Below, in pieces: positions 3,152 through 56,551 of a stretch of DNA of 56,551 bases. This DNA comes from an uncultured Verrucomicrobiota bacterium (GTDB lineage: Bacteria > Verrucomicrobiota > Verrucomicrobiia > Opitutales > Opitutaceae): NCBI GenBank assembly GCA_913058185.1, contig CAJXQX010000018.1, positions 1 through 56,551 of the forward strand. The letters run 5' to 3'. The notes beneath the pieces were generated by a model, which was not told the origin of the DNA, did not search any database, and saw nothing but the letters and a program-made list of their open reading frames with translations. Within the stretch, counting starts at the first letter, position 1; each line of letters starts with the position of its first letter. Both the position numbers and the translations under genes were made by a program.

Positions 3152-5617
3152 ATGGAAAAGGACCATTCGAAATCACCGACCAACCGCAAACTTGGATGGT
3201 GGTGGGGATTTGTCGCTCTGCTAACTGCCTCACTACCTTGGTGGCGAAACCACGGATTTATTCGCGATTTCATGGACTATGGCTTGGTCATGGCCGGCGC
3301 TGGGCGTATCGGCGACGGCGAAGCTCCTTACGTAGATTTTGTAACTCCAATCCAAGCTGGATTCCTCTATTTAAATCGTTGGATGGAAGTTCTGGGAGGC
3401 GGCACATTCATCGGGATGACCTATGGGGGACTCCTGTTGATCGTCGGCGGCTGGTTTGGGCTGCAGCACTTGCTGAAGCCACGCGTGGGCACTTTGGGAG
3501 CAGGAGCGATCGCGTGGGTGATCATCGTTTGCTCCGCTAGCCAGCACACGATCATCTGGCACAATACCTTGGGGGTTTTTTGCATCGCACTGGTGACTTG
3601 GTCAGCAGCGATGGCCCCGGGGCTCTCCAAGCGGAGCTGGATATTGCATTTAGTGATGGTCGGGGGACTTTGGCTGGGAGGGATGAACAAGGTCAGTTTC
3701 CATCTGATCGCAATTTGCGGGGCATTAGGATTCGTTGTTCGCGCCGCTCTACTCCAGCACATCGACCGCCGTTCTCTGGCTCAGAGTATCACGTTGATCA
3801 TTCTCACCGGGGTGATGCTGCCGATCGGCACGGAACTCTTCATCACCGGGGCAAGTTTCCAGCAGTGGTCATACAACGTGCTGCAACTGGCGGGAGGTAG
3901 CAGAGCAGAATATGTAACTGAGTTACTCACCTGGGATTTTTACCTGCGTCCGCTACACGACTACTATGGTCCGTTGGTAATTCCTCAATTTGGACTGATT
4001 ACGCTTATTCTATTTGGCGGAATCGGATGTCTGGGGTGGAAGAATAGAACGTCGCTCGATCGCGCCATGATTTTAGTCGCCGCAACCGGATGCGCCCTGT
4101 GCGTATTGCTGTTGCTGGCCACTAATCAAGAGATCGCCTACATCTCCGCATCAGCTGCGGTGTGTCTCGGCACGGCTCTTTTCCTTGGTTTTGGACTACA
4201 ACTTCCCCCTCGAGGCAACACCGTCACGCTAGTTCTAATAACCATTATATTTGCCCTGCCGGCTTGGCGATCGGCGTGGCTGGGTGAACGGGTTCTTTTT
4301 GGACACTCAGCTTCAGCGCGGAGTGAATATCGGATATTGTCAGAGGAGGGTTCTGCATTCAGCTACCTTGCAGGCGTGCGCATACCTTCCGAGTCGGTGG
4401 ATTCATATTCCGTTTTAGTCGATTTGATCAGTCCGCCAAACGCACAGGGTCAGCATCGCGTGTTCTATGGGACAGGCGTCGAATGGCTTGAACGCGTGTG
4501 GCCGACAGAAAAACACCCGGGGCTCCCACTTTGGATGCATGATGGGACTTCATATGGTCCCTCCGAATCACAACTGCTGCAACGGTTGGTCAATCTACCA
4601 TCAAGATTCAATCAACTCGTTTCATCGGTTCCATGGGATCACTGGCCCGGTCAGGCACACGTGCCGATCGACGAGTTCGCGATTTCCCGGTTTTGCGGCT
4701 CCGTGCTAAAACTCTACGAGATTCCTCAAATCATGGCGGAGGACCGTCTTCAGTTAAAACTGATCAACACATTCAAAACCAACTTCGAACCGCGATTGTT
4801 AGAATTCGATGAGTATACCTTGCTGTATACAGATGAAACAGGTCGGCCTTTGTTCGGGACCACCAGCGAACCCATAAGTATCAAACTCAACTGGAAAGGG
4901 AGCCGGGCCCGAGCCGAACCAATCCTAATGCGAGGCTCGGCCTCGCCCAACGCCAAGGTTCGAGCCAAATTCACTATCGAATATGAGGTCGACGGCACCT
5001 GGCATCATATTTGGTCCGAAAACCTCGAACTACTCCCTGGAGAGGAAACAATAACACGGCAGACCGTCTTCGATTGTCGCCAACGCGAGCTTCGATTCCG
5101 GGTGGAACTTGATGCTTCCGACTACGGCAAAGGGCTCGCTGGCTGGTTTCCGCCAACCCTGCTCGATTCGCAAGCTTCCCCTCACCTTCCGCCACCGCTG
5201 ACACACAACGCTTCCGCCGTTAACCCGGAGACCGATGGCATAGAAACCGCTCTCCTAGCTACCGACTGGTCCCCAGACCAAATCTACCTTAGAGGAGGAA
5301 AGGCGAGTGCAGACGGACTCGTTTTGTCCCCCGGAGATCAGATTTGGTTAAGAGCAGATCAGCCGCTGAGCGCGCTGGATGGAGAATTACGGGTCGACGG
5401 CAATACTACGGAAAAAATGCCTTTGGTGAGAATCCTTTGGTATAAAGCCGGTAGAGTTCAAATGGCCTGGCAGGGGACCTTGGACGAAAACCAACCCATT
5501 CGGCCTTTCCACGCTTGGTCGGTCGGCCCAGAGGGATGGTTCGGCATTATCGTGGACCATCAGCTCAATACCGCTCCGGTATCGGTAAAGATAACCCGAA
5601 TCGAACAACAAAACTAA
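3152..5617 (+). CDS. Large polytopic membrane protein with C-terminal soluble domain (putative GT-C-like)
   Basis: 821 residues from the ATG at 3152, chosen because the upstream extension is polar and unconserved in character. About ten hydrophobic segments occupy the first ~400 residues; the rest is soluble and rich in beta-type sequence. The acidic loop after the first membrane segment (DFMDYGLVMAGAG...GEAPYVDF) recalls the first extracytoplasmic loop of GT-C glycosyltransferases, where acidic residues are catalytic, but I do not recognise a named family. The C-terminal ~200 residues may be carbohydrate-binding; this is a guess from context. It is transcribed divergently from msrA. Confidence 0.6.
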   Translation: MEKDHSKSPTNRKLGWWWGFVALLTASLPWWRNHGFIRDFMDYGLVMAGAGRIGDGEAPYVDFVTPIQAGFLYLNRWMEVLGGGTFIGMTYGGLLLIVGGWFGLQHLLKPRVGTLGAGAIAWVIIVCSASQHTIIWHNTLGVFCIALVTWSAAMAPGLSKRSWILHLVMVGGLWLGGMNKVSFHLIAICGALGFVVRAALLQHIDRRSLAQSITLIILTGVMLPIGTELFITGASFQQWSYNVLQLAGGSRAEYVTELLTWDFYLRPLHDYYGPLVIPQFGLITLILFGGIGCLGWKNRTSLDRAMILVAATGCALCVLLLLATNQEIAYISASAAVCLGTALFLGFGLQLPPRGNTVTLVLITIIFALPAWRSAWLGERVLFGHSASARSEYRILSEEGSAFSYLAGVRIPSESVDSYSVLVDLISPPNAQGQHRVFYGTGVEWLERVWPTEKHPGLPLWMHDGTSYGPSESQLLQRLVNLPSRFNQLVSSVPWDHWPGQAHVPIDEFAISRFCGSVLKLYEIPQIMAEDRLQLKLINTFKTNFEPRLLEFDEYTLLYTDETGRPLFGTTSEPISIKLNWKGSRARAEPILMRGSASPNAKVRAKFTIEYEVDGTWHHIWSENLELLPGEETITRQTVFDCRQRELRFRVELDASDYGKGLAGWFPPTLLDSQASPHLPPPLTHNASAVNPETDGIETALLATDWSPDQIYLRGGKASADGLVLSPGDQIWLRADQPLSALDGELRVDGNTTEKMPLVRILWYKAGRVQMAWQGTLDENQPIRPFHAWSVGPEGWFGIIVDHQLNTAPVSVKITRIEQQN

Positions 5618-5761: not shown

Positions 5762-5782
5762 CCATCTCCGTCTTTTTCCGAT

Positions 5783-5980
5783 ATGAGCACTACTGAAGAA
5801 ACCGAACAACGCAGCATTTCTCCCGCCGAGATCCCATTCTCGACGCCGGACGCGTTGAAGCCATATATCACCGACACTGGGAAGATTCTTCCTCGTAAAT
5901 ACACGCATTTGTCGGCCAAGGAGCAGCGACGCATTACCAAAACGGTTAAGCGCGCGCGAAACCTGCTTTTTGCACAGTAA
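5783..5980 (+). CDS. rpsR: 30S ribosomal protein bS18
   Basis: 65 residues. After an acidic N-terminal tail the S18 core is clear: YITDTGKILPRKYTHLSAKE followed by QRRITKTVKRARNLL, matching the 'GKI.PRR.T....K.QR....IKRAR' pattern of the family. The protein binds the central domain of 16S rRNA next to bS6. Antisense frames on the other strand are longer but have no family signature. Unlike many bacteria, no rpsF, ssb or rplI is beside it; it looks monocistronic, with its own terminator at 6006-6036. Confidence 0.92.
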   Translation: MSTTEETEQRSISPAEIPFSTPDALKPYITDTGKILPRKYTHLSAKEQRRITKTVKRARNLLFAQ

Positions 5981-6005
5981 GCGAAACGAAGTTTTCCTAC
6001 ATTCG

Positions 6006-6036
6006 AGCCGGTGCGTGAAATATGCCCCGGCTTTTT
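6006..6036 (+). terminator. Rho-independent terminator after rpsR
   Basis: AGCCGG (6006-6011) can pair with CCGGCT (6027-6032) around a 15-nt loop, followed by a short T run (6032-6036). It lies 25 bp after the rpsR stop. The hairpin contains the ATG at 6022, which argues against that codon as the start of the next gene. Confidence 0.6.
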
Positions 6037-7053: not shown

Positions 7054-7885
7054 CTAGCGTTCGGGGGTATCGTCGTTCTTCGACATCACAACGTAGTAAT
7101 CCTTATAAGATTTGTCGTAGTATTGAGCGTAGTAGTAACCGGAAACCGCCAAGTTGAGACCATTCAAAACTGCTCCGAATACCGGCACACCGCTCTCTGA
7201 TAACTTTTTCGCAGCAAATTGCGCTGCCTTACGACGAACCTTATTGAAAAATATCGAGAAAAGAGCACCATCCATCAACCGAAGGATCACCATCGCATCG
7301 CTAACCGCTGGCTAGTGGCGGCGTATCAAAGAACACCCGATCATAACGTCCCCTGAGGTCTGTAACCATTTGCTCGAAGCTCTTACTATTTAGGATGTGA
7401 GTAGGATTCTTAGCCCGTCCACCGGTTGGAATGACATCCAGATTAGGGGCTACATTTTTAAGGATTACTTCGTCCAACGTTCCGGAACCTCCTACGATAT
7501 CAATAACGCCTTTGATGTTCTCTAGTTGTACAGTCTTGTGAATGTTCGGCTTCCTTAAGTCACAATCAACAATCACTACTTTCTCCCCATGGGCCGCGTA
7601 GGTCATCGCGACATTCGTTGTCACAAATGACTTACCCTCACCAGGAATCGTGCTGGTTGTCAGAATGCATTTCGCATCCTTCGCCTCAGGCTTGAGTCGC
7701 ATTGCCGAATGAAGAGTCAAAAAGGCCTCCGAAACCTGTCGATCAGCATTGGTTAAAACAACTTTAGCCTTTTCAACCGCGTCCAACTTCTTGATTTGCG
7801 GAATAATGCCAATCAAAGGAACCCCGATTACCGATTCGATATCGAAAGAGCTTTTAACCCGATCGTCCACGACCCCGAGTATTTC
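7054..7885 (-). pseudogene. Wzc-type bacterial tyrosine kinase, truncated and frameshifted remnant
   Basis: The cytoplasmic kinase domain of a Wzc/CpsD-like BY-kinase is legible: VVDDRVKSSFD, Walker A in TIPGEGKSF, Walker A' in VVIVDCDLRKPN, Walker B in FFDTPPLA, and a Tyr-rich tail (YYYAQYYDKSYKDYYVV) of the kind that is autophosphorylated. Two lesions are visible. One extra base near 7306-7312 shifts the frame after DTPPLA: frame one runs into a stop, while the next frame resumes with SDAMVILRLMDGALF. The Wzz domain and membrane segments are absent; recognisable homology stops near 7880, where the divergent TPR gene begins. It is probably a dead piece of an exopolysaccharide locus. Confidence 0.82.
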
Positions 7886-7931
7886 CCACGTGCCCCGCCC
7901 TCTCGAAAACCGGATCCCCGATTCCACCGCG

Positions 7932-9527
7932 ATGAAAGTTCTCGTGAGTTGGAAACGTTGGCTACCCATTTACGTTTACCGGGCGAGGTCCGGCTGGAAG
8001 ATGCAGGCATTTCCTCTCCAAATGACGATTTGGACACTATTGTTGCTGGTCTCCGCCTATCTCGGAGCCGGGACAGCCCTATTTCTGAACGACACGCACC
8101 GGCACAACCTCGCCGGTATATCTTGGTTTGATCGGATATACCCCCCGAACTGGGATGAATACCGGGAAGCCAGAGGGGATTCCTACATAACACAGGCCCA
8201 AGATTCGATCGAGTCGGGCGATTTCTCGAAATCGTTCCACCAGGTGCGAGCGGGACTAGCGAGATCTCCTCACCATTTAGATGGGAGATTACTACTGGCA
8301 GATCTGTATCAGGCCATGGGACTAGGTGACCTAGCCCTAAATACTCTGGTTGAATGCACAAAATATCATTTCAACGAAACCCCCTATCTGAGCCGTGCTA
8401 TTCAGGTTTTGTTCTCCCAGCAGAGAGACTCGGAGATCGTGAAGCTTTGCGATTCTCTATTATCCAATGGGGAACTTAGTTCTAAATCCGAACAACTCCT
8501 TCGAATAGCGAAAGCAAATGCGCTCTTTTTCCGCGGCAACTTTGACCAGACCGAGGACACTCTGAGCGACGAGCACATCAGTAAGTTGCCCGAAAGCCGT
8601 CTACTACAGGCTAAAATCGAGTGGGATCGCGGTTTTCCGGAACTCGCGCTCGCGCTTATTAAGTAACTGAATATCGAATTCCCCAAAAACCTAGAGATCT
8701 ATAGACACCAGATCCAATGGCTCATAGCCGACGGACAGGTCGAATCCGCAAGACAAACGAGCTTCCTTCGGCGGATCAAATATCCAGACCAGGCTCAACC
8801 CCGCATCGACATGCTCTACGCATTCGACAAGGCAGGCGAGGAGATCGCCGTCGAGAATGATGCTCAATCACTACTACGAGAATTCCACGGAAACTACTCG
8901 GTGTTGCTGCAGCTAGGTGATTTTGCGGCCAACACCGCCCGGGTGGATGTCGCCCAACACGTTGTGACCCAAGCCACCCAGCAGAGTATGGCGCTCGAAG
9001 GCCCCGCGCTGATGGTCGTTGAAGCGATTATTACCGCCGGCGACTACCGTAGCGCCCTCGATCAAACCCAGCAGACACTTGCCGATAATCCCGAGTGGGA
9101 GGATAAACTCGCTCCCGTATTCAACGGTTTGCAAGCAATCTGCTACCACGCTTTGGGGGAACGAGAAGAAGCTAACTTATTTTTAGGAAACTACTTAAAC
9201 CTGGACGCACTCCGAGCAGAAAACCTCGTCGCGGTCTCCAAGCGCTTGGAGGATGTCGGAGCAAGTCGTGAAGCCCGAATGGTCCTCAATCATGCAGTCC
9301 AACGGGATTCATTAAATCAAGCAGCCCTGACTCGACTGATAGAATTCGACTTAAAATCCGCAAACGCACCAGAACTCCCCTCGAATCTGCGGCAAATTAT
9401 GGATATGAGGCGCCCTCCGACGACCCTACTCCGACAAGCCTACGACAGAATCGGGCAAGATCGATTTATGTTCGTCGAAGATCGGAATCAATTGATGCAA
9501 CAATTATTGGCCAAATTAACCGGCTGA
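7932..9527 (+). pseudogene. TPR-repeat protein interrupted by one in-frame TAA
   Basis: The frame starting at the ATG 7932 encodes a basic N terminus, one membrane segment (MTIWTLLLLVSAYLGAGTAL) and helical-repeat sequence with TPR character. It stops at TAA 8664-8666, yet the same frame continues open to 9527 with the same repeat style (e.g. AALTRLIEFDLKSANAPELP). Without the stop the product would be about 531 residues. A restart at ATG 8811 could give a 238-residue C-terminal fragment. Its position next to the wzc remnant suggests a former role in polysaccharide export or envelope assembly, which is inference. A single base change such as CAA or GAA to TAA explains the break. Confidence 0.72.
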
Positions 9528-9555
9528 CCGACTCGCCCGAAGTGCCCCCTCCGGC

Positions 9556-10653
9556 TCACATCGCCCCCCTAAACTCAGCAAGCGCTGATAATAAACGCTC
9601 GTTCTGGGCGGCACTTCCCACCGTGATCCGCACCCACTCCGGCAGTCCGTAAACCCCAACCGGACGCACGATCACCCCAACTCGTTGAAGTGCAGAGAAT
9701 AACACTTTTCCGTCTCCTACTTTAACCAGCACGAAATTCCCCACGCTAGGGACAAAAGGTAATCCCAAGTCCGCCAAACCAAGCTCCAGTTGCTCCAGTC
9801 CTTCCCGATTGGTTTGCCGGCAACGCTGGATCCAATCGTGGTCATCCAAGGCCGCCAACGCCCCCGCCTGGGCCACGGCGTTCACATTGAAGGGCTGCCT
9901 CGAGCGTTGCAACAATCCCGCCAGCTCAGAATTCATCCGCCCATATCCCACCCGCAGGGCGGCTAAACCGAAAATCTTGGAGAAGGTCCGCAGAATCACC
10001 AGAGGACGACCTGCGGCAAGCAAGTCACTCCAATCAGGCTCTTTATCCAAATATTCAGCGTAGGCTTCATCGATAATGACTACAATATTCTCCGGAAGTG
10101 ATCTCACCCAATTGATCATCTCCGAAGCCTCATTGGTTGTCCCTGTCGGATTATTGGGGCTTGGCAGAAAAATCATCTTCGTTCGATCCGTAACTGCTGC
10201 GGCCATTGCCGAAAGATCGTGCACATGATCGCACAGCGGAACTTCCACCGGCGTCGCACCAAAGAGTAAGGTGACCAGCTTATAGACGATAAATGCCGGC
10301 GTCCCCATGAGCACCTCATCTCCTGGCCGCAAAAATACATGCCCGAGCAACTCCAACAGCTCATTGGAGCCATTCCCCACCACGATTTGATCACTCGCCA
10401 AATCATGCCGCGTCGCCAGTCGTGCCCTCAATTGGATGCATCCGCCATCCGGGTATAGTGCTGCGCCTTCCAACGCCTGCCGCATCGCATTCAATGCCAA
10501 CGGCGATGTCCCCAGCGAATTCTCATTCGAAGCCAATTTGATGATGGTGCCCGGATTCAAACCCAGCTCGCGAGCCACGTCCTCAATCGGTCTCCCTGGC
10601 TCGTAAACCGGCTGACTCAATATATGGGGATTTACGAGGTCGGTCAGATTCAT
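9556..10653 (-). CDS. hisC: Histidinol-phosphate aminotransferase
   Basis: 365 residues from MNLTDLVNPHI at 10653; a 44-residue upstream extension is basic and not family-like. Class I/II aminotransferase features: KLASNENSLGTSP near the N terminus, GNGSNELLELL (PLP phosphate), SPNNPTGT, IIDEAYAEYL (Asp/Tyr around PLP) and RTFSKIFGLAALRVGYG with the Schiff-base Lys. It interconverts imidazole acetol phosphate and histidinol phosphate in histidine synthesis; some members also act on aromatic amino acids. No other his genes are adjacent. It is divergent from an exported hydrolase gene, whose start is 56 bp away. Confidence 0.9.
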   Translation of the reverse strand: MNLTDLVNPHILSQPVYEPGRPIEDVARELGLNPGTIIKLASNENSLGTSPLALNAMRQALEGAALYPDGGCIQLRARLATRHDLASDQIVVGNGSNELLELLGHVFLRPGDEVLMGTPAFIVYKLVTLLFGATPVEVPLCDHVHDLSAMAAAVTDRTKMIFLPSPNNPTGTTNEASEMINWVRSLPENIVVIIDEAYAEYLDKEPDWSDLLAAGRPLVILRTFSKIFGLAALRVGYGRMNSELAGLLQRSRQPFNVNAVAQAGALAALDDHDWIQRCRQTNREGLEQLELGLADLGLPFVPSVGNFVLVKVGDGKVLFSALQRVGVIVRPVGVYGLPEWVRITVGSAAQNERLLSALAEFRGAM

Positions 10654-10708
10654 GAGGTCTACCCAACACGATTCGACAACCACGCCAAAACCAATTTTCA
10701 TTTTCCCC

Positions 10709-11818
10709 ATGTTATCGCTTCGCCTCAGCCTCCGGTTCGCATTGCTCGGGGCTATTGCATTTCTGCCAATCCACATCTTCGCCACCGTCGAATTAACCCG
10801 CGGAACGATCGACGGTGCTCACTACACGATAGCCCGTGATTCGGATCGAGAATGGAACCACTCTCTGTTACTGATTGCTCACGGTTTCCGCTCTGATGCC
10901 GCCCCGCTTGTCGCCGACCTGTTCCCCGACCAAGCAGCTTACGCATCCCTGATCGACGAAGGCTGGATCATTGCAAAAACGAGCTACCGTCGCAACGGCA
11001 TGATCATCGCCGACGCCATCACTGACCTCGATAATCTACACGCGTTCGTATCCGACGAATTTGGGCGCCCCCAACGCAGTATCATCGAAGGCGATTCCAT
11101 GGGAGGCACGATTGCCACCCACTTAATGGAGCGGGAAGATTCTCGCTACCACGGCGCTGTCGCCATCGGCGCCGCTCTGGAACTTCGTGAAAACGATGCA
11201 GCACCCGGGGTGAAACGCACTCCACTTAGACCGCTGCTATTCATGGCAAACCGTTCGGAGATACTTGGGCCCAAAGCCTATATCTCCAACGCGCCCCTCT
11301 CTCCCGACACCCCGCAGATGCGCCCCGCCCTCTTCCGTATCGATCGAGATGGGCACATAAATGTAAATCAGGCCGAACGCCTTATCGCGCTTCGGGCCTT
11401 AAATCGTTGGCTCGATCGGGGCCGCCAAGCCCTCCCGCGCGAACAACCATTCGATGCTACCCAACCGGCTCAACTCCAGCCCAGCCGGGTCGTATTCGAT
11501 CATGATAATCGTGGTCTGGTCACTAAGGTGAGTCACGTTTCCGCAATCTACGGCAATGTTTGGTTGGACATCCAACTCGCCGACCTCGAGCGCATCGGGC
11601 TCGATCCTGGGCTCTGGGCTGAAATTCGCATCGACGGAAAGTCTTACCGCTTCCGCTATGGCCAAGACTTCTCTAGCGTAAAGCGAGGCGAATGGGTCAT
11701 TTTTCCCAACGCTGATGGATTCTTTTGGCTATCACGAAACTGGGGCAATGCGGCCGAGACCGCAGATCTCGCAATGGGTGACGAAGTCCACCTTCGCCGT
11801 CTGGACTCTTCAAACTAG
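10709..11818 (+). CDS. Exported alpha/beta-hydrolase, nucleophile elbow GDSMGG
   Basis: 369 residues from ATG 10709, beginning with a signal peptide (MLSLRLSLRFALLGAIAF... cut after HIFA). Features of a serine hydrolase: LLIAHGF near residue 54 as an oxyanion-type HG motif, and a G-D-S-M-G-G elbow with the nucleophile at Ser130. A late DRDGHIN could supply the His. The C-terminal ~110 residues are outside the hydrolase fold and beta-rich. The substrate is unknown; an esterase acting on polymers or envelope components is possible. It is monocistronic and convergent with the HAD gene. Confidence 0.7.
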   Translation: MLSLRLSLRFALLGAIAFLPIHIFATVELTRGTIDGAHYTIARDSDREWNHSLLLIAHGFRSDAAPLVADLFPDQAAYASLIDEGWIIAKTSYRRNGMIIADAITDLDNLHAFVSDEFGRPQRSIIEGDSMGGTIATHLMEREDSRYHGAVAIGAALELRENDAAPGVKRTPLRPLLFMANRSEILGPKAYISNAPLSPDTPQMRPALFRIDRDGHINVNQAERLIALRALNRWLDRGRQALPREQPFDATQPAQLQPSRVVFDHDNRGLVTKVSHVSAIYGNVWLDIQLADLERIGLDPGLWAEIRIDGKSYRFRYGQDFSSVKRGEWVIFPNADGFFWLSRNWGNAAETADLAMGDEVHLRRLDSSN

Positions 11819-11827
11819 TCCCCGGAA

Positions 11828-12427
11828 TCAGAACGAGCGACTCGGCACTTTCACCAAAGCCATGCCCGCTGCGATCGCGGCTTCAAACCCAGGAACTGCG
11901 TCTTCGAAAACGACACACTCATGGGGCGGCACATTGATATGCTTGGCCGCTTCGAGAAACATGTCCGGCGCTGGCTTCCCTCTGCCCTCACCGACATCGG
12001 CCGGCGTCACCACGATGGAAAATACCTCTCGGAGGCCAACCGCTTCCAGCGCAGGAAGCGCCACCTCAGCAGCACCACCGGTCGCAATCGCGACCGGTTT
12101 CGATTTCGCAATCTCTCGTGCAAATTCAACCACCGGGGTGATCAATTCGACCGAATTTATTAGATCCAAATACAACTCCTCCTTGTAGTGCGAAACTTCC
12201 TCGCCATCCACGGTGATGCCATAGTGCTCACCGAGCTTTAATGCGACTAATGGAGTCGGCACCCCACCCAGCGAATAAAACAGATCCTCGTCCAAGGATT
12301 GTCCGATCCCCGCTCGCTGCATTGCAGCGTCCCAGGCCCGATAGTGCACCGGCATGGAATGAATGAGCGTGCCATCCAGATCAAAGATATAACCGCCGTA
12401 TTCGCGGTCTGGGAGTTCTAATTGCAT
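11828..12427 (-). CDS. HAD-superfamily phosphatase, beta-phosphoglucomutase-like
   Basis: 199 residues from MQLELPDREYGG at 12427. HAD motif I is FDLDGTLIHSMPVHYRAW, with the nucleophile Asp and the helical cap of subclass IA; motif II is IATGG, and motifs III/IV are GKPAPDMFLEAAKHI plus VFEDAVPGFEAAIAAGM. The DLDGTL...HYRAWD pattern is close to beta-phosphoglucomutases and sugar-phosphate phosphatases such as YqaB. The substrate cannot be read. It lies between a convergent hydrolase gene and the helicase gene on the same strand. Confidence 0.8.
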   Translation of the reverse strand: MQLELPDREYGGYIFDLDGTLIHSMPVHYRAWDAAMQRAGIGQSLDEDLFYSLGGVPTPLVALKLGEHYGITVDGEEVSHYKEELYLDLINSVELITPVVEFAREIAKSKPVAIATGGAAEVALPALEAVGLREVFSIVVTPADVGEGRGKPAPDMFLEAAKHINVPPHECVVFEDAVPGFEAAIAAGMALVKVPSRSF

Positions 12428-12511
12428 AGTCGTTCTTAGGCCAGCGGGTTGAGCTTCAAGTGACAACCTGCAAACCTAAGAATCCAGAAGTCGCAACGCG
12501 TCCTCTGGGAA

Positions 12512-14173
12512 TCAGCGACGCATTCCGCGCATCAACCGCGATTTCGGCTTAACTGGAGCGGCCTCCGCCAATACCTTGGCGTCAAACAGCGCCGAATAGA
12601 TGTAATCAAAATCGTCGATTTGAGTGCGTTCAATGTCGGACTCGATGAACCGCTCGATCGAACGGGCATTTCGCACGTCCTCTTCGGTCACCAAAGTGAA
12701 AGCATCACCGGTCGATTGCGCCCGGCCAGTCCGACCGATCCTATGCACATAATCTTCCGCATTCTCGGGCACATCGTAGTTAATGACGTGAGAAACACCC
12801 GCGATATCGAGACCGCGAGCGGCGATATCGGTGGCCACGAGGACTTCGAATTTACCGGACTTGAAGCCTTGCAGGGCTTCGACGCGTTCGCGCTGGCTGC
12901 GATCAGAATGCATCACCGCCACGGTGTGATTGTCGGCTTGCAAACGGCGGGCGATTTTATCCGCGCCCATCCGGGTCCGGGTAAACACGAGCACACTTTT
13001 AAAATCAGTCCGACGCATTAACTCCTGCATGAGGTTAAACTTCTGCGAAGCCACCACCGGATAGAATGCATGGGAGATGGTTTCCGCCACCCTCCGCTGC
13101 ATGCCAATTTTGACCTGCTCAGGATTATTCAGCGCCCAGTCCGCCAATGAGGCAATTTCAGGGGGGATAGTCGCAGTGAAAAAGAGGGTCTGACGGTTCT
13201 GCTTACACCTTTGCACGATCCGACGGACATCCGGCAAGAAACCCATGTCGAGCATGCGATCAACCTCATCCAACACCAATATCTCAATATCATCGAGGTT
13301 GGTGGTGCCGTCTTCCATCAAATCGAGCAATCGGCCAGGAGTGGCAGCACAGATATCAACTCCGCGACGCAAATCTTCACGTTGTTTACCATAGCCTACC
13401 CCGCCATAAATGATCGTGGTCGTTAGGTCAGTAAACTTGGAATACTCTTGGAACGCTTCTTCAACCTGCAAAGCGAGTTCGCGGGTGGGTTCGAGCACGA
13501 GACACCGCATCTTGCCGTGCGAGTTCAGTTTCTGCAAAATCGGCAGCGCGAATGCTGCCGTCTTACCGGTGCCGGTCTGAGCCGAACCGATCACATCACG
13601 TCCCGCGAGAATCAAGGGAATCGATTGAGCCTGGATCGGAGTCGGGGATTCATAACCCTTTTCCGCGACTGAAAACGCTAACGCGTCATTCAACCCTAAT
13701 TTGGAGAACTCAGTATCCTGAGGAGGGATGTCGATCGGCGTCTTCGGTTTGAAAGATTCAGTCTGCGGGTGCTCGAAATCATCACGTGGCGGAGGTCCGC
13801 GACGTTCGCTGCGGTCATTCCGACCGCCACGTCCTGCTGGGGCGCCATCTCTGCGTCCACCTCTTCTTTCGCCTCCACGTCTTTCGCCGCCGCGACCACC
13901 AGAACGTTCTCCGCCGCGTCCACTAGAACGTTCGCCCCGGGTGTTTTCACCGGTTTTTTCAGGACGGTCAGGACGATCCGGACGGTCAGAGCGCTTGCGG
14001 CGGCTACGATTACCGCCCCCTCCTGCGTCCGGATTACGTGACCTTCCGCCACTTTTCGGAGCTTGGGACTTCGGGGAGGAACTTGATTTTGGGGTCGAGT
14101 CTTTGGACTGACTCGAGGCGTCGCTGGACGACGCAGAGGAGCGTCGGAACGCTGAAATTATCTTCTTAAACAT
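12512..14173 (-). CDS. DEAD-box RNA helicase, RhlE-like, with long basic N-terminal tail
   Basis: 553 residues. The first ~150 are low-complexity, Ser/Lys then Arg/Gly/Asp-rich with RGG-like repeats, likely an RNA-binding tail. The core follows: Q motif (PTPIQAQSIPL), motif I AQTGTGKT, Ia PTRELALQ, motif II DEVD in VLDEVDRMLDMGF, motif III TAT, motif V ATDIAARGLDI and motif VI HRIGRTGRA. Motifs II and III differ from the usual DEAD and SAT. Such helicases remodel rRNA or mRNA structure, often in the cold. An AAGGA is well placed 8 nt before the ATG, and the 5' leader may be long because the upstream gap is 335 bp. Confidence 0.9.
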   Translation of the reverse strand: MFKKIISAFRRSSASSSDASSQSKDSTPKSSSSPKSQAPKSGGRSRNPDAGGGGNRSRRKRSDRPDRPDRPEKTGENTRGERSSGRGGERSGGRGGERRGGERRGGRRDGAPAGRGGRNDRSERRGPPPRDDFEHPQTESFKPKTPIDIPPQDTEFSKLGLNDALAFSVAEKGYESPTPIQAQSIPLILAGRDVIGSAQTGTGKTAAFALPILQKLNSHGKMRCLVLEPTRELALQVEEAFQEYSKFTDLTTTIIYGGVGYGKQREDLRRGVDICAATPGRLLDLMEDGTTNLDDIEILVLDEVDRMLDMGFLPDVRRIVQRCKQNRQTLFFTATIPPEIASLADWALNNPEQVKIGMQRRVAETISHAFYPVVASQKFNLMQELMRRTDFKSVLVFTRTRMGADKIARRLQADNHTVAVMHSDRSQRERVEALQGFKSGKFEVLVATDIAARGLDIAGVSHVINYDVPENAEDYVHRIGRTGRAQSTGDAFTLVTEEDVRNARSIERFIESDIERTQIDDFDYIYSALFDAKVLAEAAPVKPKSRLMRGMRR

Positions 14174-14508
14174 ATCTATAATCCTTCAGAAGTGTCGAGG
14201 ATTGGGCTGATAAGCAACTACGGAGATTTCCGCCTCCTCAAAGCACGCTACATCCAACCAAGCACACCTTAGATTCCGTGCCTCCAGCCCCTCATCTTGA
14301 TTGTTTTCGTCTTGTTTCCGACAATCGCACCCTATTTCAGGGCGCTGATTAGCCCTTCCTCCAAATCGGCAAACAGATCAAAACGAGTGATCTTGGCCGA
14401 CTAGGACTGCGTTTGGTCTGAGTCTAACAGTCCACGTTAAGCTTCACCGTTCGACCCTGAGGCCGTCACGCGATTGACGCCTATTGGCTGAGTTTGCTAT
14501 CGAGCCCC
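14174..14508. other. Gene-free divergent intergenic region (335 bp)
   Basis: It separates the helicase gene and the TIM-barrel gene, both transcribed outward. I find no reading frame with coding character. AGGGC/GCCCT at about 14338-14355 and CGGA/TCCG near 14220-14235 can form small hairpins, but neither has a T tract. The helicase side could be a structured leader, as many bacterial DEAD-box mRNAs have; nothing in the sequence proves it. Confidence 0.4.
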
Positions 14509-15246
14509 ATGCCCTCACCTCGTGTTTCGCTGCAACTCTGGTCACTCCAGGATCAAACCGCCGAAGATTTCGATGCTACGGTCAAAGAAGTTGCTAAGAT
14601 GGGTTACACCGGCGTGGAGACCGCAGGTTACGGGAATCTCGAGGCCGCCGCCGCCGCCGAGTCTATGAAGAAGGCCGGACTCATTGTCTCCGGCATGCAC
14701 ATCGGCATTGATCGCCTCAGGGGAGAATTTAATGCGGTTATCGATGAGGCCCTCCTCTGCGATACGCGCGATATCATTTGCCCGTTCTGGCCAGTCGACC
14801 ACTTCCGTTCCGCCGAAGTTTGTAGCACCATCGGAGCCGAACTCGACGATATCGGTGCCCGACTCCGCGGCATGGGGTTTCGGTTCCACTACCACAATCA
14901 CGACCACGAAATCGCGTTACAAGACGGCCGTCCCGGCATCGACTGGCTGCTCGATCACACCGCCCCGGCCAACGTCAGCTTCGAGGCCGATGTGTATTGG
15001 GTTCAACACGGGGGACAAGATCCTGCCCAAATTATCCGCGAATACGGACGTCGCATTCAACTTCTACACATAAAAGACGAAGCCGAGATCGGCTCAGGGC
15101 CGGTCAATTTCGCCCCTATTTTCACCGCCGCCGAAAGCATCGGCGCGGTTGAATGGTATGTGATCGAAGTCGAAAAATATAATCACGACCCCATCGAATC
15201 TGTCCGCCTCTCGCTCGAACAAATGCGGAACTGGGGCAAAGCCTGA
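14509..15246 (+). CDS. Sugar phosphate isomerase/epimerase-type TIM-barrel protein
   Basis: 245 residues from ATG 14509 (a TTG at 14494 is possible but unneeded). It belongs to the xylose-isomerase-like TIM-barrel superfamily: QLWSLQD at the first strand, GVETAGYG, a metal-site cluster HYHNHDHE near residue 128, FEADVYWVQHGGQDP, HIKDE and a final VIEVEKY. The conserved Glu, Asp and His residues are the expected divalent-metal ligands. The gene is followed 47 bp later by a Gfo/Idh/MocA oxidoreductase, a pairing seen in pathways handling keto-sugars or inositols. The substrate is not assignable. Confidence 0.82.
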   Translation: MPSPRVSLQLWSLQDQTAEDFDATVKEVAKMGYTGVETAGYGNLEAAAAAESMKKAGLIVSGMHIGIDRLRGEFNAVIDEALLCDTRDIICPFWPVDHFRSAEVCSTIGAELDDIGARLRGMGFRFHYHNHDHEIALQDGRPGIDWLLDHTAPANVSFEADVYWVQHGGQDPAQIIREYGRRIQLLHIKDEAEIGSGPVNFAPIFTAAESIGAVEWYVIEVEKYNHDPIESVRLSLEQMRNWGKA

Positions 15247-15293
15247 TCCACTAAACGCCCCCAGATCTAAGTCCTCCACCTTCCCATCCCCCC

Positions 15294-16355
15294 ATGGCCA
15301 AATCCAAAAAAAACTTCAATATCGCAGTCATTGGTGCCGGTGCTATCGGCATCGACCACATCCGTAGCTTCCAACAACACCCTGCAGCCAACGTAGTCGC
15401 CCTAGCGGAGGTTTCGGCCCAACGCGGCCAGGAGGCTGCCGACACGTTCGGAATCCCCGATTTGGTCACCGACTATCAGGACCTGCTCAAACGTTCGGAT
15501 ATCGACGTGATCTCAATCGCATTGCCCAACTTCCTCCACGCCTCGGTCGGAATCGAAGCCTTACGGGCGGGAAAACACGTCATGGTGGATAAGCCGATGG
15601 CCACCAACGCCAAAGACGCGGCAAAACTGATCGCCGCATCCAAGAAGCACCGTCGCCGGCTTATGGTCGGCCAAAACATGCGCTTCTCTCCCGAAGTCCA
15701 AACCGCTCGACATCTCATCAACCAAGGTAAGCTCGGCGACGTCTACCATGCCAAGACCTCCTGGTCGCGTCGCAGTGGGATCCCGCGAATCGGATCGTGG
15801 TTCACCCAAAAGCAATTCGCCGGCGGCGGTTGCACCTACGATATTGGGGTCCATGCCCTCGACCGCGCGTTGTTTCTGATGGGGGAATTCGAAGCTGCTG
15901 CCGTGAGCGGTCAAACCTACTCTCAACTCGGCCCCCTTGGTCGAGGCAATGGGGACTGGGGCAAAGGCGAGGTCGATAAAAAGGCAAAATTCGACGTCGA
16001 TGATCTGGCCGTTGCACTCATCAAACTCAAGAGTGGGCGCACCGTTTTACTCGAAGCCTCATGGGCCGCCCACCTCCCTGAAAACGACTTCTTCACTTCC
16101 CAAGTTTTCGGCACCGATGCGGGCATCATGCTCAACCCCTTACGCCTCATTCGTCCGAGCCGCATTGGCTATGTGACCGAAGAAGTAACACCCTCCACCC
16201 CACTGGTGAATGAGAACCGCATGGTGCATTTCATCGACGTATTACTCGGCAAGGTGGAACCCTACGTAAAACCCGCTGAATCTTTGGCCGTGCAAAAGAT
16301 CCTCGATGCGATCTACGCTTCGTCAGCATCGGGCCGCGAAGTGCGGATCAAATAA
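15294..16355 (+). CDS. Cytoplasmic Gfo/Idh/MocA family oxidoreductase
   Basis: 353 residues, no signal peptide. Rossmann motif IAVIGAGAIGIDHIRSF near residue 10, then LPNFLHASVGIEALRAGKHV and DKPMAT where most of the family has EKP. A Tyr/Asp/His site is visible in GGGCTYDIGVHALDRALF near residue 179. The enzyme would oxidise or reduce a sugar or cyclitol with NAD(P). It probably forms an operon with the preceding TIM-barrel gene. The downstream GNAT gene, on the same strand after 24 bp, is broken. Confidence 0.85.
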   Translation: MAKSKKNFNIAVIGAGAIGIDHIRSFQQHPAANVVALAEVSAQRGQEAADTFGIPDLVTDYQDLLKRSDIDVISIALPNFLHASVGIEALRAGKHVMVDKPMATNAKDAAKLIAASKKHRRRLMVGQNMRFSPEVQTARHLINQGKLGDVYHAKTSWSRRSGIPRIGSWFTQKQFAGGGCTYDIGVHALDRALFLMGEFEAAAVSGQTYSQLGPLGRGNGDWGKGEVDKKAKFDVDDLAVALIKLKSGRTVLLEASWAAHLPENDFFTSQVFGTDAGIMLNPLRLIRPSRIGYVTEEVTPSTPLVNENRMVHFIDVLLGKVEPYVKPAESLAVQKILDAIYASSASGREVRIK

Positions 16356-16379
16356 TCACCGGCCGCACCTTCCCTTTCT

Positions 16380-16865
16380 ATGACGACTCTCCGCGACGCC
16401 ACTTCCGCCGATACCTCGCTGGTGCTCGAGTTCATCACCGAGCTGGCGGTCTACGAAAAGATGGTCGACGATGTGGTCGCTAGGGTCGAGATCCTCTAAG
16501 CCCAACTTTTCCCGGTGGAGGGAGCGGCCTCCGCGCATTGTGTGTTGGCCTTTGATGGCGAAACCCCGGTTGGTTTCGCACTGTATTTCTACAACTTCTC
16601 CACGTTCCTCGCGCGACGCGGTCTCTACCTTGAAAACCTATTCGTTCGGCCCGATCATCGCAGCGGCGGTCATGGAAAGGCGTTGCTGCTCCATCTGGCC
16701 AAGACAGCGCATGCCAAAGTTTGCGGTCGCATGGAATGGTGCGTGCTGGACTGGAACCAACCCGCGATTGATTTCTATCAAAGCCTAGGGGCGGAGATGA
16801 TGAGCGAATGGACCACGTGCCGGCTCAACCAAACAGCGCTTGCTCGTATTGCAGAGTCCGCCTGA
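16380..16865 (+). pseudogene. GNAT-family N-acetyltransferase with in-frame TAA at codon 40
   Basis: The frame from ATG 16380 begins MTTLRDATSADTSLVLEF, a typical GNAT start, and stops at TAA 16497-16499. The same frame continues without interruption to 16865 and carries the acetyl-CoA site: LENLFVRPDHRSGGHGKALL (the R/Q-x-x-G-x-G/A region) and WNQPAIDFYQSLGA. Length without the stop is 161 residues, normal for the spermidine/thialysine acetyltransferase-like group. Because both sides of the stop are well conserved, the lesion is recent or an assembly error. A restart at 16515 would lack the first two helices. Confidence 0.82.
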
Positions 16866-16883
16866 TCGACCGTTAATCGCGGC

Positions 16884-17681
16884 ATGGGCACTATTCCGTT
16901 CTACTGGGTCGACGCATTTACCGATAAACCATTCGGAGGGAATCCCGCCGCAATCTGTCCTTTGGAATCGTGGCTCCCCGACGAGCTGCTACAACGCATG
17001 GCTTGGCAACACGGATTGTCCGAAACGGCCTTCTACGTTTCTGAATCCTAGGGTAGCTATCACCTCCGCTGGTTCACGCCTGCGCGGGAAGTTGACCTAT
17101 GCGGTCATGCCACGCTCGCCGCAGCTGCCGTGATTTTTGATCGAGAGTCCAGTCTCGTTGAAATCGTATTCAATTCCCAAAGTGGTCGATTGCGCGTGCA
17201 ACGTGATAGTCACGGCCGCTACGAACTGAATTCCCCTAGCCGACCACCGATTAAATCGGAATTCGAGGAATCCTCCGGCGAACTACTGGGCGCGCTTGGT
17301 GTGGAATGCGCTGAGTGGGTGGGAAAATCTCGCGATCACTTTGTCGTGATAGCCAACCAAACTGCCGTCGCGGCGCTGAAGCCTGATTTCGAGCGAATGG
17401 TGAAGTTCGACACCTCGTCAGTCATCGTCACGGCACCGGGAGATGATCTGGATTTTGTATCACGCAATTTCGCTCCGGGTTACGGCATCGACGAAGACCC
17501 CGTCACCGGTTCGGCCCATTGCACTTTGACGCCATTTTGGGCGCAACGTCTCGGAAAAGATCAACTGCACGCCAAGCAGATTTCGGCACGAGGCGGCGAG
17601 CTTTGGTGTGGACTTCGAGGCGATCGTGTAGCAATCGCGGGAAATGCGGTCACTTACCTCAAAGGGCAAATCAGCATTTAG
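16884..17681 (+). pseudogene. PhzF-family isomerase/epimerase with in-frame TAG at codon 56
   Basis: The frame from ATG 16884 starts with FYWVDAFTDKPFGGNPAAIC and the catalytic-Glu motif GLSETAFYV, both PhzF signatures. It then meets TAG at 17049-17051. The same frame continues as RWFTPAREVDLCGHATLAAA and later DEDPVTGSAHCTL...GGELWC, the remaining family motifs. Without the stop the protein would be 265 residues, the usual family length. PhzF enzymes isomerise small metabolites by a Glu acid/base. The gene follows the equally broken GNAT gene by 18 bp. Confidence 0.83.
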
Positions 17682-17692
17682 GAAACGCGGGC

Positions 17693-18359
17693 TTAGCCCA
17701 ATCCGTTTTGCATCACCCAGCGCACGAGACTGGCGACTTCGCGAACACCCAACTTTTCCATAATGTTAGCGCGGTGCTTTTCGACCGTTCGGGTGCTCAG
17801 ATCGAGATCTGAAGCCACCTCCTTGGAGGATCTTCCGGCGGCGACCAATCGGGCTACTTCCAATTCGCGCGCAGACAGCTCCGACGGAAGCACATCACTC
17901 GCTGAAGGCAGACTGCCGCCCACTGAACTGCTTTCCGCTTGCACGTGACTGGCAAAAAACATTCCACCCGCCATGACCGTGTCGATGGCTTGAATGACAT
18001 AAGCGAGCGGTTCGGTCTTATCGACAAATCCTGCTACTCCGAGCCGCATCAATTTCCCCGGCAATGAGGGATCCGCGTGACCGGTTAGGACCAGAACTTT
18101 CACGTCTTTGTGCACCTGCAACAGCTCTCTTACGATATCCAAGCCGTGTTTACCGGGAAGCTGTAGATCCACCAAGAGTAACTCTGGAGGATTTTGGAGA
18201 CACGCCTCCAGACCGACAGCACCATCGGCGTAGTCTTCCACCATCTTCCCCCTTGCGCTTTTCCAATGAGCGTTTCACCAAATGCCGAAATACTGTTTCA
18301 TCCTCGATGAGGATCACGCGGGGAGGCTTTTTACTGCCAGCTGAGTCGAGAGGTAACAT
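17693..18359 (-). pseudogene. NarL-type response regulator with +1 frameshift in a G5 run
   Basis: The N terminus (from 18359) gives RVILIEDETVFRHLVKRSLEK, the acidic pocket of a receiver domain. At a run of five C (18248-18252; G on the coding strand) the frame is lost; with four G it would read straight into MVEDYADGAVGLEACLQ and continue. The rest is intact: phospho-acceptor Asp in LLLVDLQLPG, the Lys in GFVDKTE, and a LuxR-type HTH (LSARELEVARLVAAGRSSKEVA...STRTVEKHRANIMEKLGV). Total length would be about 221 residues. No partner kinase is next to it. It could be a pseudogene, slip-strand phase variation or an assembly error. Confidence 0.8.
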
Positions 18360-22571: not shown

Positions 22572-23378
22572 GTGTCACGCCCTCTCAACTCAACTCCTCC
22601 TCCCGGTGATCGCACCCCACCGCCGATTTTAGACGTTGAGCAGCACAACCAAGAAATTCACGAGAACCAACGTCACTGGGACAGGAAACCCGAGCTCCGC
22701 GCCATATACGCCGAGTTCTATCAACAAATCGCCCAGTATCTCCCTCCTGCTTCAGCCGGAACGGTGCTCGAGTGCGGGTCGGGGATCGGCAACCTGAAAT
22801 CGGCCCTCCCCCACGCCGTCACCAGCGACCTCTTCCCCAACCCCTGGCTCGATCGTCAGGAAAATATATATACCCTTTCGGATGGTAACGACTCGCTGGC
22901 GGGAGTCGTTCTATTCGATGTCTTTCACCACCTGCGTTATCCGGGCCTCGGTTTGACTGAACTGCACCGGGTGCTTCAGCCTGGGGGCTGTGCCGTTATC
23001 ATGGAACCCGCGGCTGGATTACTCGGCCGCATTTTCCTGGGTTTGTTTCACCATGAGCCGCTCGCGCTAGGCGCGCCCATCGCGTGGCAACCCTCCACCG
23101 ATTTCGACCCGACCAACGTCGACTACTACGCCGCCCAGGGCAACGCCTGGCGCATTTTCCACCCCCGTAATCCAGAACGCCCGAAACTGAACGGTTGGTC
23201 TGCGCCCAAAGTGCACTACCTGCCGGCCGTTCCCTGGATCATGACTGGCGGCTTTCGCGGTCCAACTCTGAATCGAGGTCCTTTGAGATACCTTTGGCGC
23301 GCCATCGACTCCATCCTCAGCTTGGCACCAAGACTTTTCGCGTCTCGCATGATCGTGGTTTTGGAAAAATCGTCTTAA
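22572..23378 (+). CDS. Class I SAM-dependent methyltransferase, GT-C-associated
   Basis: 268 residues from a GTG at 22572. Motif I is VLECGSGIGNLKSALP; FDVFHHLRYPGLGLTELHRVLQPGG covers motifs IV-VI. The HWDRKPELRAIY N terminus and the long C-terminal extension are outside the core fold. The stop is followed after one base by the ATG of the GT-C gene, so they are co-translated and probably act in the same surface-glycan pathway. The methyl acceptor is unknown. Confidence 0.82.
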   Translation: MSRPLNSTPPPGDRTPPPILDVEQHNQEIHENQRHWDRKPELRAIYAEFYQQIAQYLPPASAGTVLECGSGIGNLKSALPHAVTSDLFPNPWLDRQENIYTLSDGNDSLAGVVLFDVFHHLRYPGLGLTELHRVLQPGGCAVIMEPAAGLLGRIFLGLFHHEPLALGAPIAWQPSTDFDPTNVDYYAAQGNAWRIFHPRNPERPKLNGWSAPKVHYLPAVPWIMTGGFRGPTLNRGPLRYLWRAIDSILSLAPRLFASRMIVVLEKSS

Positions 23379-23379
23379 G

Positions 23380-25434
23380 ATGTTCGTATCCCGTGAACGA
23401 AACCGCTGGCTGACCAATCAGCGCGCGACCGGATTGGCCCTTATCCTATGTATCGGGCACGTCTTCTCGGCTGCATCGGTCAGTAAGAATTTCAGCACGA
23501 CCTATGACGAGATAGCTCACATTACCGCAGGATTCGTTTACTGGACAGCCCACGATATGCGGTTCCAGCCGGAAAACGGAAACTTCCCTCAACGGTGGTG
23601 TGCGCTCCCGCTGCTGTGGATGGATACCCAAGAGATATCTCCTGACTATTTTGCTTGGCCCGAGGGTGATGTATGGGCGATGGGCGAAGCATTCTTCTAC
23701 ATGCAGGGCAACGTCCCGGCTGAGCTGCTCGCTGCCGCACGAGGAATGATCGCATTGCTCTCCGGTTTACTTTGCTGGATCATTTTCCAGTGGAGCCGAA
23801 GTCTATTCGGTCGCGGCGGTGCATTGATCTCACTCGGCCTCGTTACGTTCAGTCCGTCCATTCTGGCCCACGGCGGGCTCGCCACCTCCGACACTGCCGC
23901 AACCCTCGCATTTTGTCTTACCCTCCTGACTTGGTGGAGACTCTATCATCGCATCTCGTGGGATCGGTTACTGCTCGCCGGATTGGCCGCGGGTCTGCTC
24001 GCCGTGGCAAAGTATTCCGCCCTCCTGTTCGCTCCGATCGCCCTGCTATTGGGCATACTCCGTTTGGCTCAAGCCACCCCTTTAATCGGAGCTTGGCGGG
24101 ACCAAAGGTGGCGGTGGTCTGGAGGTAGGAAATTCGCAGCTATCGGGGTCGCCAGTCTCTTTTCCGGTTTGGTTGCATGGACCACAATTTGGGGGGGGTA
24201 CGAATTTCGATTTACCCCCGCGCCTGACCCCACTCAACGGGAATTCCTGATCGGCTGGGATAAGTTATTTCTGGAATCAACGGAGCCCGAACGGCGACTG
24301 GCCGACGGCCAGCCCGCCCAGCAGGATCCCGTCAATTTCCAACCCGGCATAATCCAATCATTCGGCCGCGTTGCCTTGGAGTGGAAAATACTACCGGAGG
24401 CCTACATTCACGGACTCTTGATCGTCGATCGTTACTCCCGGTCGCGTCTGGCTTTTTTTGCCGGCGAATATCGTAACACGGGTTGGTGGACATTCTTTCC
24501 CACGGCATTTCTGACCAAAACCACGTTGGTGACCCTCGGGTTCTTCAGCGCCGGAATCATTGCCTTGTTCCGCCATCGCCGCGCCCGTCGAATCGCATAC
24601 CGGTTAGCACCTCTCTTGATTTTAGCGGTGATTTACGGAACGACGATTTTAACCTCAAATCTGAGTATCGGCCACCGACACACCCTACCGCTTTATCCGT
24701 TGGTCTTTATCGTCGCTGGAGCAATCGGGCCTCTGATCAATCGACCCTGGCAGTGGAGAATCGCGGTCGTGGGAGTCCTGCTCCAAGTAATGGTTTCTTG
24801 GACGATTCGCCCTTATTACCTCGCTTACTTCAACGAGCTGATCGGAGGACCACGTAACGCTCACCGACTGTTCGTGGATAGCTCCTTGGATTGGGGACAG
24901 GACCTGCCCGGGCTCGCCTCATGGCTAACCGAACATCCTGACGAACAACCCTTCTATTTGAGCTACTTTGGCTACGGGGACCCACGCCATCATGGTGTGG
25001 ATGCCATCCGGATGGGAGACTCCTACTATGATCGCCACGCGCGGATCGTTCCGGCCGTAATCACGGGAGGCACCTTCGGTATCAGTGCCACTATGCTGCG
25101 ACGGGTTTACTCGCCGGTTCGGGGCCCCTGGAGTCCCAGCTATGAAGCAACCTACGCTCGCCTACTCGCCTGGACTCAAACCTTCGCAACGGCCCCGGCA
25201 GGCTCATCTATTCTCGATTTTGATGGGAGTGTGATGTCGGAAGCTGCCGTCACCGAACGTTTGTGGACTTATGAGGCGCTGCAATTTGGCCGTTTATGCC
25301 TGCTATTGGAGAACATCGAACCGGAAGAGAATATCGGCTACTCGATTCTCATCTATCGTCTGACCGACGAAGAAGTGAACACCGCCCTCTACGGCGACCT
25401 TCACGCGGTCTATGACCTAATCGAAAAACACTAG
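23380..25434 (+). CDS. GT-C family membrane glycosyltransferase (GT39/PMT-like)
   Basis: 684 residues with about ten to twelve membrane segments. The first periplasmic loop carries STTYDEIAHITAGFVYW, an Asp-Glu catalytic motif like those of PMT and ArnT-type enzymes, followed by GNFPQRW. A second acidic region is WGQDLPGLASWL near residue 505. Such enzymes use polyprenyl-phosphate sugars to glycosylate proteins, lipids or glycans outside the cytoplasmic membrane. The upstream methyltransferase is tightly coupled. Its stop TAG shares the palindrome CTAG (25431-25434) with the stop of the convergent gene. Confidence 0.8.
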   Translation: MFVSRERNRWLTNQRATGLALILCIGHVFSAASVSKNFSTTYDEIAHITAGFVYWTAHDMRFQPENGNFPQRWCALPLLWMDTQEISPDYFAWPEGDVWAMGEAFFYMQGNVPAELLAAARGMIALLSGLLCWIIFQWSRSLFGRGGALISLGLVTFSPSILAHGGLATSDTAATLAFCLTLLTWWRLYHRISWDRLLLAGLAAGLLAVAKYSALLFAPIALLLGILRLAQATPLIGAWRDQRWRWSGGRKFAAIGVASLFSGLVAWTTIWGGYEFRFTPAPDPTQREFLIGWDKLFLESTEPERRLADGQPAQQDPVNFQPGIIQSFGRVALEWKILPEAYIHGLLIVDRYSRSRLAFFAGEYRNTGWWTFFPTAFLTKTTLVTLGFFSAGIIALFRHRRARRIAYRLAPLLILAVIYGTTILTSNLSIGHRHTLPLYPLVFIVAGAIGPLINRPWQWRIAVVGVLLQVMVSWTIRPYYLAYFNELIGGPRNAHRLFVDSSLDWGQDLPGLASWLTEHPDEQPFYLSYFGYGDPRHHGVDAIRMGDSYYDRHARIVPAVITGGTFGISATMLRRVYSPVRGPWSPSYEATYARLLAWTQTFATAPAGSSILDFDGSVMSEAAVTERLWTYEALQFGRLCLLLENIEPEENIGYSILIYRLTDEEVNTALYGDLHAVYDLIEKH

Positions 25435-27257: not shown

Positions 27258-27271
27258 GGAATTTCCGCCAC

Positions 27272-29140: not shown

Positions 29141-29169
29141 AAAAAAGCCGCCCAATAAATTGGGCGGCT
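29141..29169 (-). terminator. Strong intrinsic terminator of the pilin gene
   Basis: On the minus strand GCCGCCCAA pairs with TTGGGCGGC (29147-29155 and 29160-29168) around a 4-nt loop, followed by six T. It lies 26 bp after the pilin stop and directly abuts the start codon of the next gene on that strand. Confidence 0.9.
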
Positions 29170-31386: not shown

Positions 31387-31965
31387 TCAGGAATACAGGT
31401 GGTGTTCCCGCAGATATACAATGGCCTTGTGCGGAATAAAGTAATCCAGCGACAAACCCTGCCGAATCCGCTCCCGCAATTCGGTCGAACTGATCTCGAT
31501 CAAATGGCCGTCGCAACGATGCAGCCCTAGGCCAGGAATCTCTGGGTGATCCTTGGCCGGATGCCCAGGACGTTCTAAGTAGATGAATTGAATCAACTTA
31601 GATAACTCTTCGATTCGATGCCAGCGACCTAATTTGGGCAGCTGATCACCTCCGATTATCCAAAACAACTCGTCGTCGGGAAATTTCCCCCGAAAGTGCC
31701 GCACCGTGTCCACCGTGTAGCTGGTGCCGCCTTGAGTCACCTCATAATCCGAGACTTCCAAGCGCTCATCCCAATCTGACGCCTCCCGCAACATCGCCGC
31801 CCGATCCTCCCCCGATGCACTCACCTTATAGTCTTTCAACGGGGCCTGTGCAGCCGGAATCAAGATCAACCGGTCGAGACCGTGTTGTTCCAAAGCATCT
31901 TGGGCCGCGACCAAGTGACCGAAGTGCACGGGATCGAAGCTACCACCCATAAGGCCGATTTTCAC
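31387..31965 (-). CDS. nadD: Nicotinate-nucleotide adenylyltransferase
   Basis: 192 residues from a GTG at 31965, giving [18 protein letters not shown] at once; a longer ATG start at 32001 would add 12 unconserved residues. [10 protein letters not shown] is the nucleotidyltransferase HxGH site, and [15 protein letters not shown] holds the ISxTxxR motif. The enzyme makes deamido-NAD from nicotinate mononucleotide and ATP. It is the first gene of a nadD-rsfS operon. Confidence 0.94.
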
Positions 31966-32068
31966 GCAGCAGTTCCTGCGGACGAGTTCACTCACCTGCA
32001 AGGCCGGTTTTCAATTACACCGAATCATTGACGACTGCGCTCGGCTTCGAGAGCGTCGCTGCCAGATT

Positions 32069-56504: not shown

Positions 56505-56551
56505 CTGTCTCTTATACACATCTGACGCTGCCGACGACTCCTTACGTGTAG
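56505..56551. other. Nextera transposase adapter and i5 index (not genomic)
   Basis: 56505-56523 is the Tn5 mosaic end CTGTCTCTTATACACATCT, 56524-56537 is GACGCTGCCGACGA of the Nextera adapter, 56538-56545 (CTCCTTAC) is the reverse complement of the GTAAGGAG i5 index, and GTGTAG begins the P5 sequence. This is untrimmed library adapter at a contig end. Confidence 0.98.

Follow-up and report, generated by a model that had tools for sequence, protein, structure and literature searches.

The window analysed here is the whole of contig 18 (56,551 bases) of a 4,094,351-base, 159-contig assembly of an uncultured Opitutaceae bacterium (G000), which is rated 99.18% complete with 2.06% contamination, and it was compared with seven genomes of the same genus (G001–G007), of which G005 is the nearest and is taken as the sister. 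Five genes between 7 and 18.4 kb are interrupted. In detail, these are a wzc-type BY-kinase pseudogene (7054–7870, minus strand) with a frame change at 7306–7308, a TPR-protein pseudogene (7932–9527, plus strand) with an in-frame TAA at 8664, a GNAT acetyltransferase pseudogene (16380–16865, plus strand) with an in-frame TAA at 16497, a PhzF-family pseudogene (16884–17681, plus strand) with an in-frame TAG at 17049, and a NarL/FixJ-type response regulator pseudogene (17693–18359, minus strand) with a frame change at 18248. Tblastn alignments of the relatives' proteins passed straight through the three stop codons and switched frame at 7306–7308 and at 18248, and the Pfam PF02567 match of the PhzF gene fell into two parts (profile positions 1–44 and 52–281). 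An earlier reading from the sequence only had placed the five lesions at these positions and proposed a comparison with close relatives, and the comparison bore it out: two relatives were aligned for TPR and GNAT and three for wzc, PhzF and NarL, and all of them have sense codons and open frames at these sites. All five genes thus show one mark of a bacterial pseudogene, a frame interrupted where the orthologues of close relatives are open. The top match of the NarL search, from which records of G000 itself were possibly excluded, was JABIRI010000121.1 from an Opitutaceae bacterium MAG (isolate SI072_bin161). Since the protein identities of wzc, GNAT, PhzF and NarL to G005 (72–92%) lie in the range of eleven unbroken genes (62–94%), the broken genes are not unusually diverged.

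The wzc and TPR pseudogenes are one locus, not two independent cases. The two genes are divergent in G002 and G007 and flank an exporter and an outer-membrane protein, while in the window about 3.5 kb, by G002 and G007 coordinates, are absent at a junction at 7871–7889; the absent stretch comprises the front half of wzc, a Wza/EpsE-type exporter and an EpsL-like outer-membrane protein. Consequently, only the C-terminal kinase part of wzc is left: its similarity to the relatives starts at about residue 467 (window 7870 down to 7057), about 466 front residues are absent, and the remnant scores slightly below the cut-off of NCBIfam TIGR01007. The original 5′ end of the TPR gene is changed at the junction as well. 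The intact G002 and G007 genes resemble an XrtA/XrtB-type EPS export locus (EpsE/Wza, EpsF-EpsG/Wzc, EpsL and a PrsT-like TPR protein) in matching the NCBIfam models, nearly all below the curated cut-offs; the exporter and the outer-membrane protein match the EpsE and EpsL models below cut-off, and the G007 relative of the TPR gene is weakly PrsT/LapB-like. The window differs from such a locus in retaining the kinase end and the TPR gene only, both interrupted.

The lost parts were then sought in the rest of G000. A search of G000 at the nucleotide level for the lost 3.5 kb was negative, although it had no control, and a protein search with the congeners as control gave no match to the Wzc front half in G000. 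The same front half was nearly whole in G001, G002, G003, G006 and G007 (69–100% identity), partial in G005 at a contig end, and only distantly matched in G004, and the N-terminal chain-length part of the BY-kinase gave two to four matches in each of the seven congeners, distant paralogues counted. An exporter orthologue was found in G001, G002, G003, G006 and G007 (62–74% identity, plus the G007 query itself), and none was found in G000, G005 or G004.

Between the two broken loci (7.05–9.5 kb and 16.4–18.4 kb) lie six unbroken genes (9556–16355), which we read from their sequences, without a family search, as HisC, a hydrolase, a HAD protein, a DEAD helicase, a sugar epimerase and a Gfo/Idh protein. 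The remainder of the window had been described as free of such lesions, and this held: 42 window genes have a same-genus reference at ≥45% identity, five of them are the broken ones, and all of the other 37 are clean, with two of these matches (5417–5614 and 5773–6036) antisense and of little weight. The script used for this check flagged four of the five broken genes, as the short first piece of NarL fell below its cut-offs. It also flagged 31390–32055, near 32011, where the stop lies upstream of the gene start and is not a lesion. About six further frames (e.g., 22572–29155 and 38801–39796) are long and open, and small truncations in them could be missed because they were compared with no close reference. 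In G005, the counterpart (L044 1701–4266) of the window gene at 3152–5617 carries a stop and a frame change, and the window copy is unbroken.

Broken genes also occur outside the window. Twenty other stretches of G000 (344,485 bases), picked without knowledge of lesions except for contig 46, contain, as a lower bound, five firmly and four probably broken genes. Among the firm cases, both profile halves were found for a PALP-family enzyme and a GGDEF protein, while a contig-12 sugar transferase and a MacB-like gene are broken by comparison with relatives, each with three lesions beside unbroken neighbours; the MacB-like gene lies in three frames with one stop against an 819-residue gene of G005. 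The probable cases, in which the profile was found in one piece only, are a P450, a solute-binding protein, a VTT protein and a 3-keto-disaccharide hydrolase. The family matches are PALP, p450 and FtsX, and calling the genes cysteine synthase, P450 and MacB is in part our own interpretation. Among the G000 matches listed for large families, stops were found in 0 of 15 ABC ATPases (44 matches in total) and in 2 of 72 sulfatases (at least 138 in total). Sulfatase family PF00884 has at least 138 matches in G000 and at least 139 in G005, vs. 42 in the congener G007. On contig 32 (L071 18241–19299), the frame of a repetitive surface-type protein seems to change several times in about 1 kb, judged on its own sequence.

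A coding-potential scan for lesions was used to compare the frequencies. The scan is noisy: its filtered form picked up three of the five window genes, taking wzc for an overlap and passing over GNAT, and made one false call at 13784, where the helicase is rich in Arg and Gly. In the 344,485 bases outside the window it made 36 calls, 24 stop-or-shift and 12 'possible overlap'; translations were read for 28 of them, the other eight all being 'possible overlap', and the other calls are partly natural overlaps. The relatives gave 15 stop-or-shift calls in 245,833 bases without G006, and six in 20,000 bases of G006. Calculated by hand, the raw stop-or-shift rates per 100 kb were 7.0 for the other G000 contigs, 7.1 for the window and 6.1 for the relatives without G006. 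Because these raw rates are similar, the stretch from 7 to 18.4 kb is not clearly exceptional, and neither is an excess of broken genes in the window significant by the same scan (8 genes in 344 kb vs. 3 in 56.5 kb, P ~0.14). The unpruned reference check flagged 7 of 52 G000 genes (one falsely and with NarL missed), in stretches chosen for their lesions, vs. 15 of 185 in six relatives. The flags per relative were 2/51 in G005, 5/46 in G002, 4/35 in G007, 2/30 in G001, 2/19 in G003, 0/4 in G004 and 6/7 in G006; these are unpruned too, and several of them seem to reflect antisense matches, fusions or extended starts. The G006 stretch concerned (L049, G006:C3:574001-594000), with stops or split frames in six of seven referenced genes, looks like what is expected of an assembly with many indel errors.

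The other Wza-type and sugar transferase genes of G000 were inspected as well. The Poly_export/Wza family PF02563 has one match in G000, a distant copy (32% identity) on contig 46, which was recovered by family and protein searches, not by the coding-potential scan. Its open frame ends at a TAA after 126 residues, while similar genes in G005, G002, G007 and G003 have 203–207 residues, and parts of the profile match before and after the TAA, with SLBB matches beyond it. The best-scoring EPS-type sugar transferase, that on contig 12, has three in-frame stops against its G005 (456 residues, 81% identity) and G002 counterparts; its first 24 residues are unaligned, and its neighbours, at 81–97% identity, have no stops. 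Two further Bac_transf matches were found, one on contig 86 covering profile positions 70–178 only and one on contig 78 without a stop, so some sugar transferase remains in G000 despite the likely loss of export. Neither a whole outer-membrane exporter (PF02563) nor a BY-kinase with an N-terminal chain-length domain, as an intact Wza/Wzc-type EPS locus has, was found in G000. Since the sole other Wza-type gene is broken too, as is the sugar transferase with the best EPS-type score, G000 probably no longer exports polysaccharide via the Wza/Wzc route.

Taken together, these results make it likely that the five genes are genuine, ordinary pseudogenes accompanied by a deletion, and that Wza/Wzc polysaccharide export has probably been lost. 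At 7.05–9.5 kb, about 3.5 kb would have been deleted, and with it the Wza-type exporter, the outer-membrane protein and the first half of Wzc; the leftover kinase end and TPR gene would additionally have come to bear the frame change and the stop. The GNAT, PhzF and NarL genes, if dead, would have died recently, as each has one lesion and no other sign of decay. Of the two explanations offered by the sequence-only reading, relaxed selection is in keeping with the EPS locus, but its 'local' part does not agree with the broken genes on other contigs; a low-quality consensus is opposed by the mildness of the replacements and is kept in play by their number and by leftover adapters, as described below.

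Consensus errors, that is, false stops and indels in a stretch of thin coverage or poor cleaning, are a rather unlikely explanation, and would concern chiefly GNAT, PhzF and NarL, which among the five have one lesion each and no further decay. Amino acid replacements at sites conserved in outgroups were scored as window-specific or sister (G005)-specific, and as radical at BLOSUM62 ≤ −1. Random substitutions in these genes are expected to give 19.8 missense per nonsense changes, with 52% of the missense radical. Inside the region, 79 window-specific vs. 49 sister-specific replacements were counted, 20% radical in both, while outside it there were 35 window-specific (20% radical) vs. 40 sister-specific ones (48% radical). 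The count therefore favours error, the window-specific excess inside vs. outside the region having a Fisher P of 0.04, while the kind of replacement speaks against it, 20% radical being found, as in the sister, where 52% were expected. In a gene-by-gene comparison, which leaves out TPR because most of it is absent from G005, wzc had 12 window-specific vs. 2 sister-specific replacements, and GNAT, PhzF and NarL together had 15 vs. 14, which fits recent death and error equally well. Also on the side of error, untrimmed adapter, which we take to be Illumina Nextera, was present at 6 of the 21 G000 contig ends examined, i.e., the window end (56505–56551, the final 47 bases), contigs 65, 75 (both ends), 95 and 110 (L074 1–47, both ends of L075, L077 14406–14454 and L078 1–44). 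None of this adapter sequence lies near the lesions. Near the same contig end, 56090–56500 is an interspersed intergenic repeat, with 75–90% identical pieces in own stretches L064 and L070 and many short matches in G005. Errors poorly account for the gap of 3.5 kb, for a single gene with three stops whose neighbours are clean, or for damage to EPS-type genes on three contigs. The lesions are also bunched, 11 falling in 7 genes vs. 9.9 expected at random (P = 0.012, optimistic because the genes were partly chosen for being broken).

A misassembly, in which two pieces were joined at 7871–7889 while the living cell has an intact EPS locus, appears improbable. The sister assembly is broken at the same place: as G005 and G004 have no exporter orthologue and the G005 contigs end at the wzc/TPR junction place, this place may be hard to assemble, and for the same reason G005 cannot decide on the deletion. 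Both junction flanks are, however, the neighbours expected from G002 and G007, searches for the lost parts in the rest of the assembly, whose completeness is rated at 99%, were negative, and wzc has a frame change besides. The junction has no adapter motif, and an adapter chimera at 7871–7889 was thus rejected.

Beyond ordinary pseudogenes, early genome decay after a change of life style (e.g., to host or particle association), with the loss of export by several independent lesions favoured and not merely tolerated, is a speculative extension with little probability. The raw lesion-scan rates gave no sign of genome-wide decay in G000 above that in its relatives, and the coding fraction is 0.79–0.94 in 21 own stretches and 0.87–0.94 in eight stretches of relatives. 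The genome, at 4.09 Mb, is within the 3.6–6.1 Mb of its congeners, and the low coding density and marked size reduction of symbiont-type decay were not found in it. Within the same family, the symbiont 'Candidatus Didemnitutus mandela' is described as having truncated genes in many places, LPS-biosynthesis pseudogenes included, in a 2.17 Mb assembly with 64.3% coding density in single-copy contigs (PMC5698493), vs. the 4.09 Mb and much denser stretches of G000. For another Opitutaceae member, 'Candidatus Synoicihabitans palmerolidicus', a high pseudogene content is suspected by its authors, and its truncated CDSs include MacB copies, comparable to the broken MacB-like gene of G000, while eight sulfatase copies are reported vs. 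at least 138 family matches in G000 (PMC8636102).

Relaxation of selection limited to the 11 kb is very improbable. For it speak the 37 lesion-free referenced genes in the rest of the window and the clustering, since five sites placed uniformly over 56 kb would all lie inside 11 kb with P ~0.006, or ~0.025 with wzc and TPR as one locus, both values being post hoc for a window picked for its lesions. Against it, other contigs hold broken genes, the six unbroken genes separate the two broken loci, and beyond wzc/TPR no common pathway seems evident. Programmed recoding or read-through, suggested by the otherwise well-kept GNAT, PhzF and NarL frames, can practically be dismissed, as the lesions comprise two kinds of stop codon and two frame changes that differ in type, none is conserved in the aligned relatives with their sense codons and open frames, and wzc lacks its front half.

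The region thus offers a worked case of telling true pseudogenes from consensus error in a draft environmental genome by the consensus alone, and the library adapters kept at contig ends of the G000 assembly call for caution in its use. If the reading as pseudogenes with a deletion is true, G000 would be a member of the genus in which polysaccharide export of the Wza/Wzc type has been lost.
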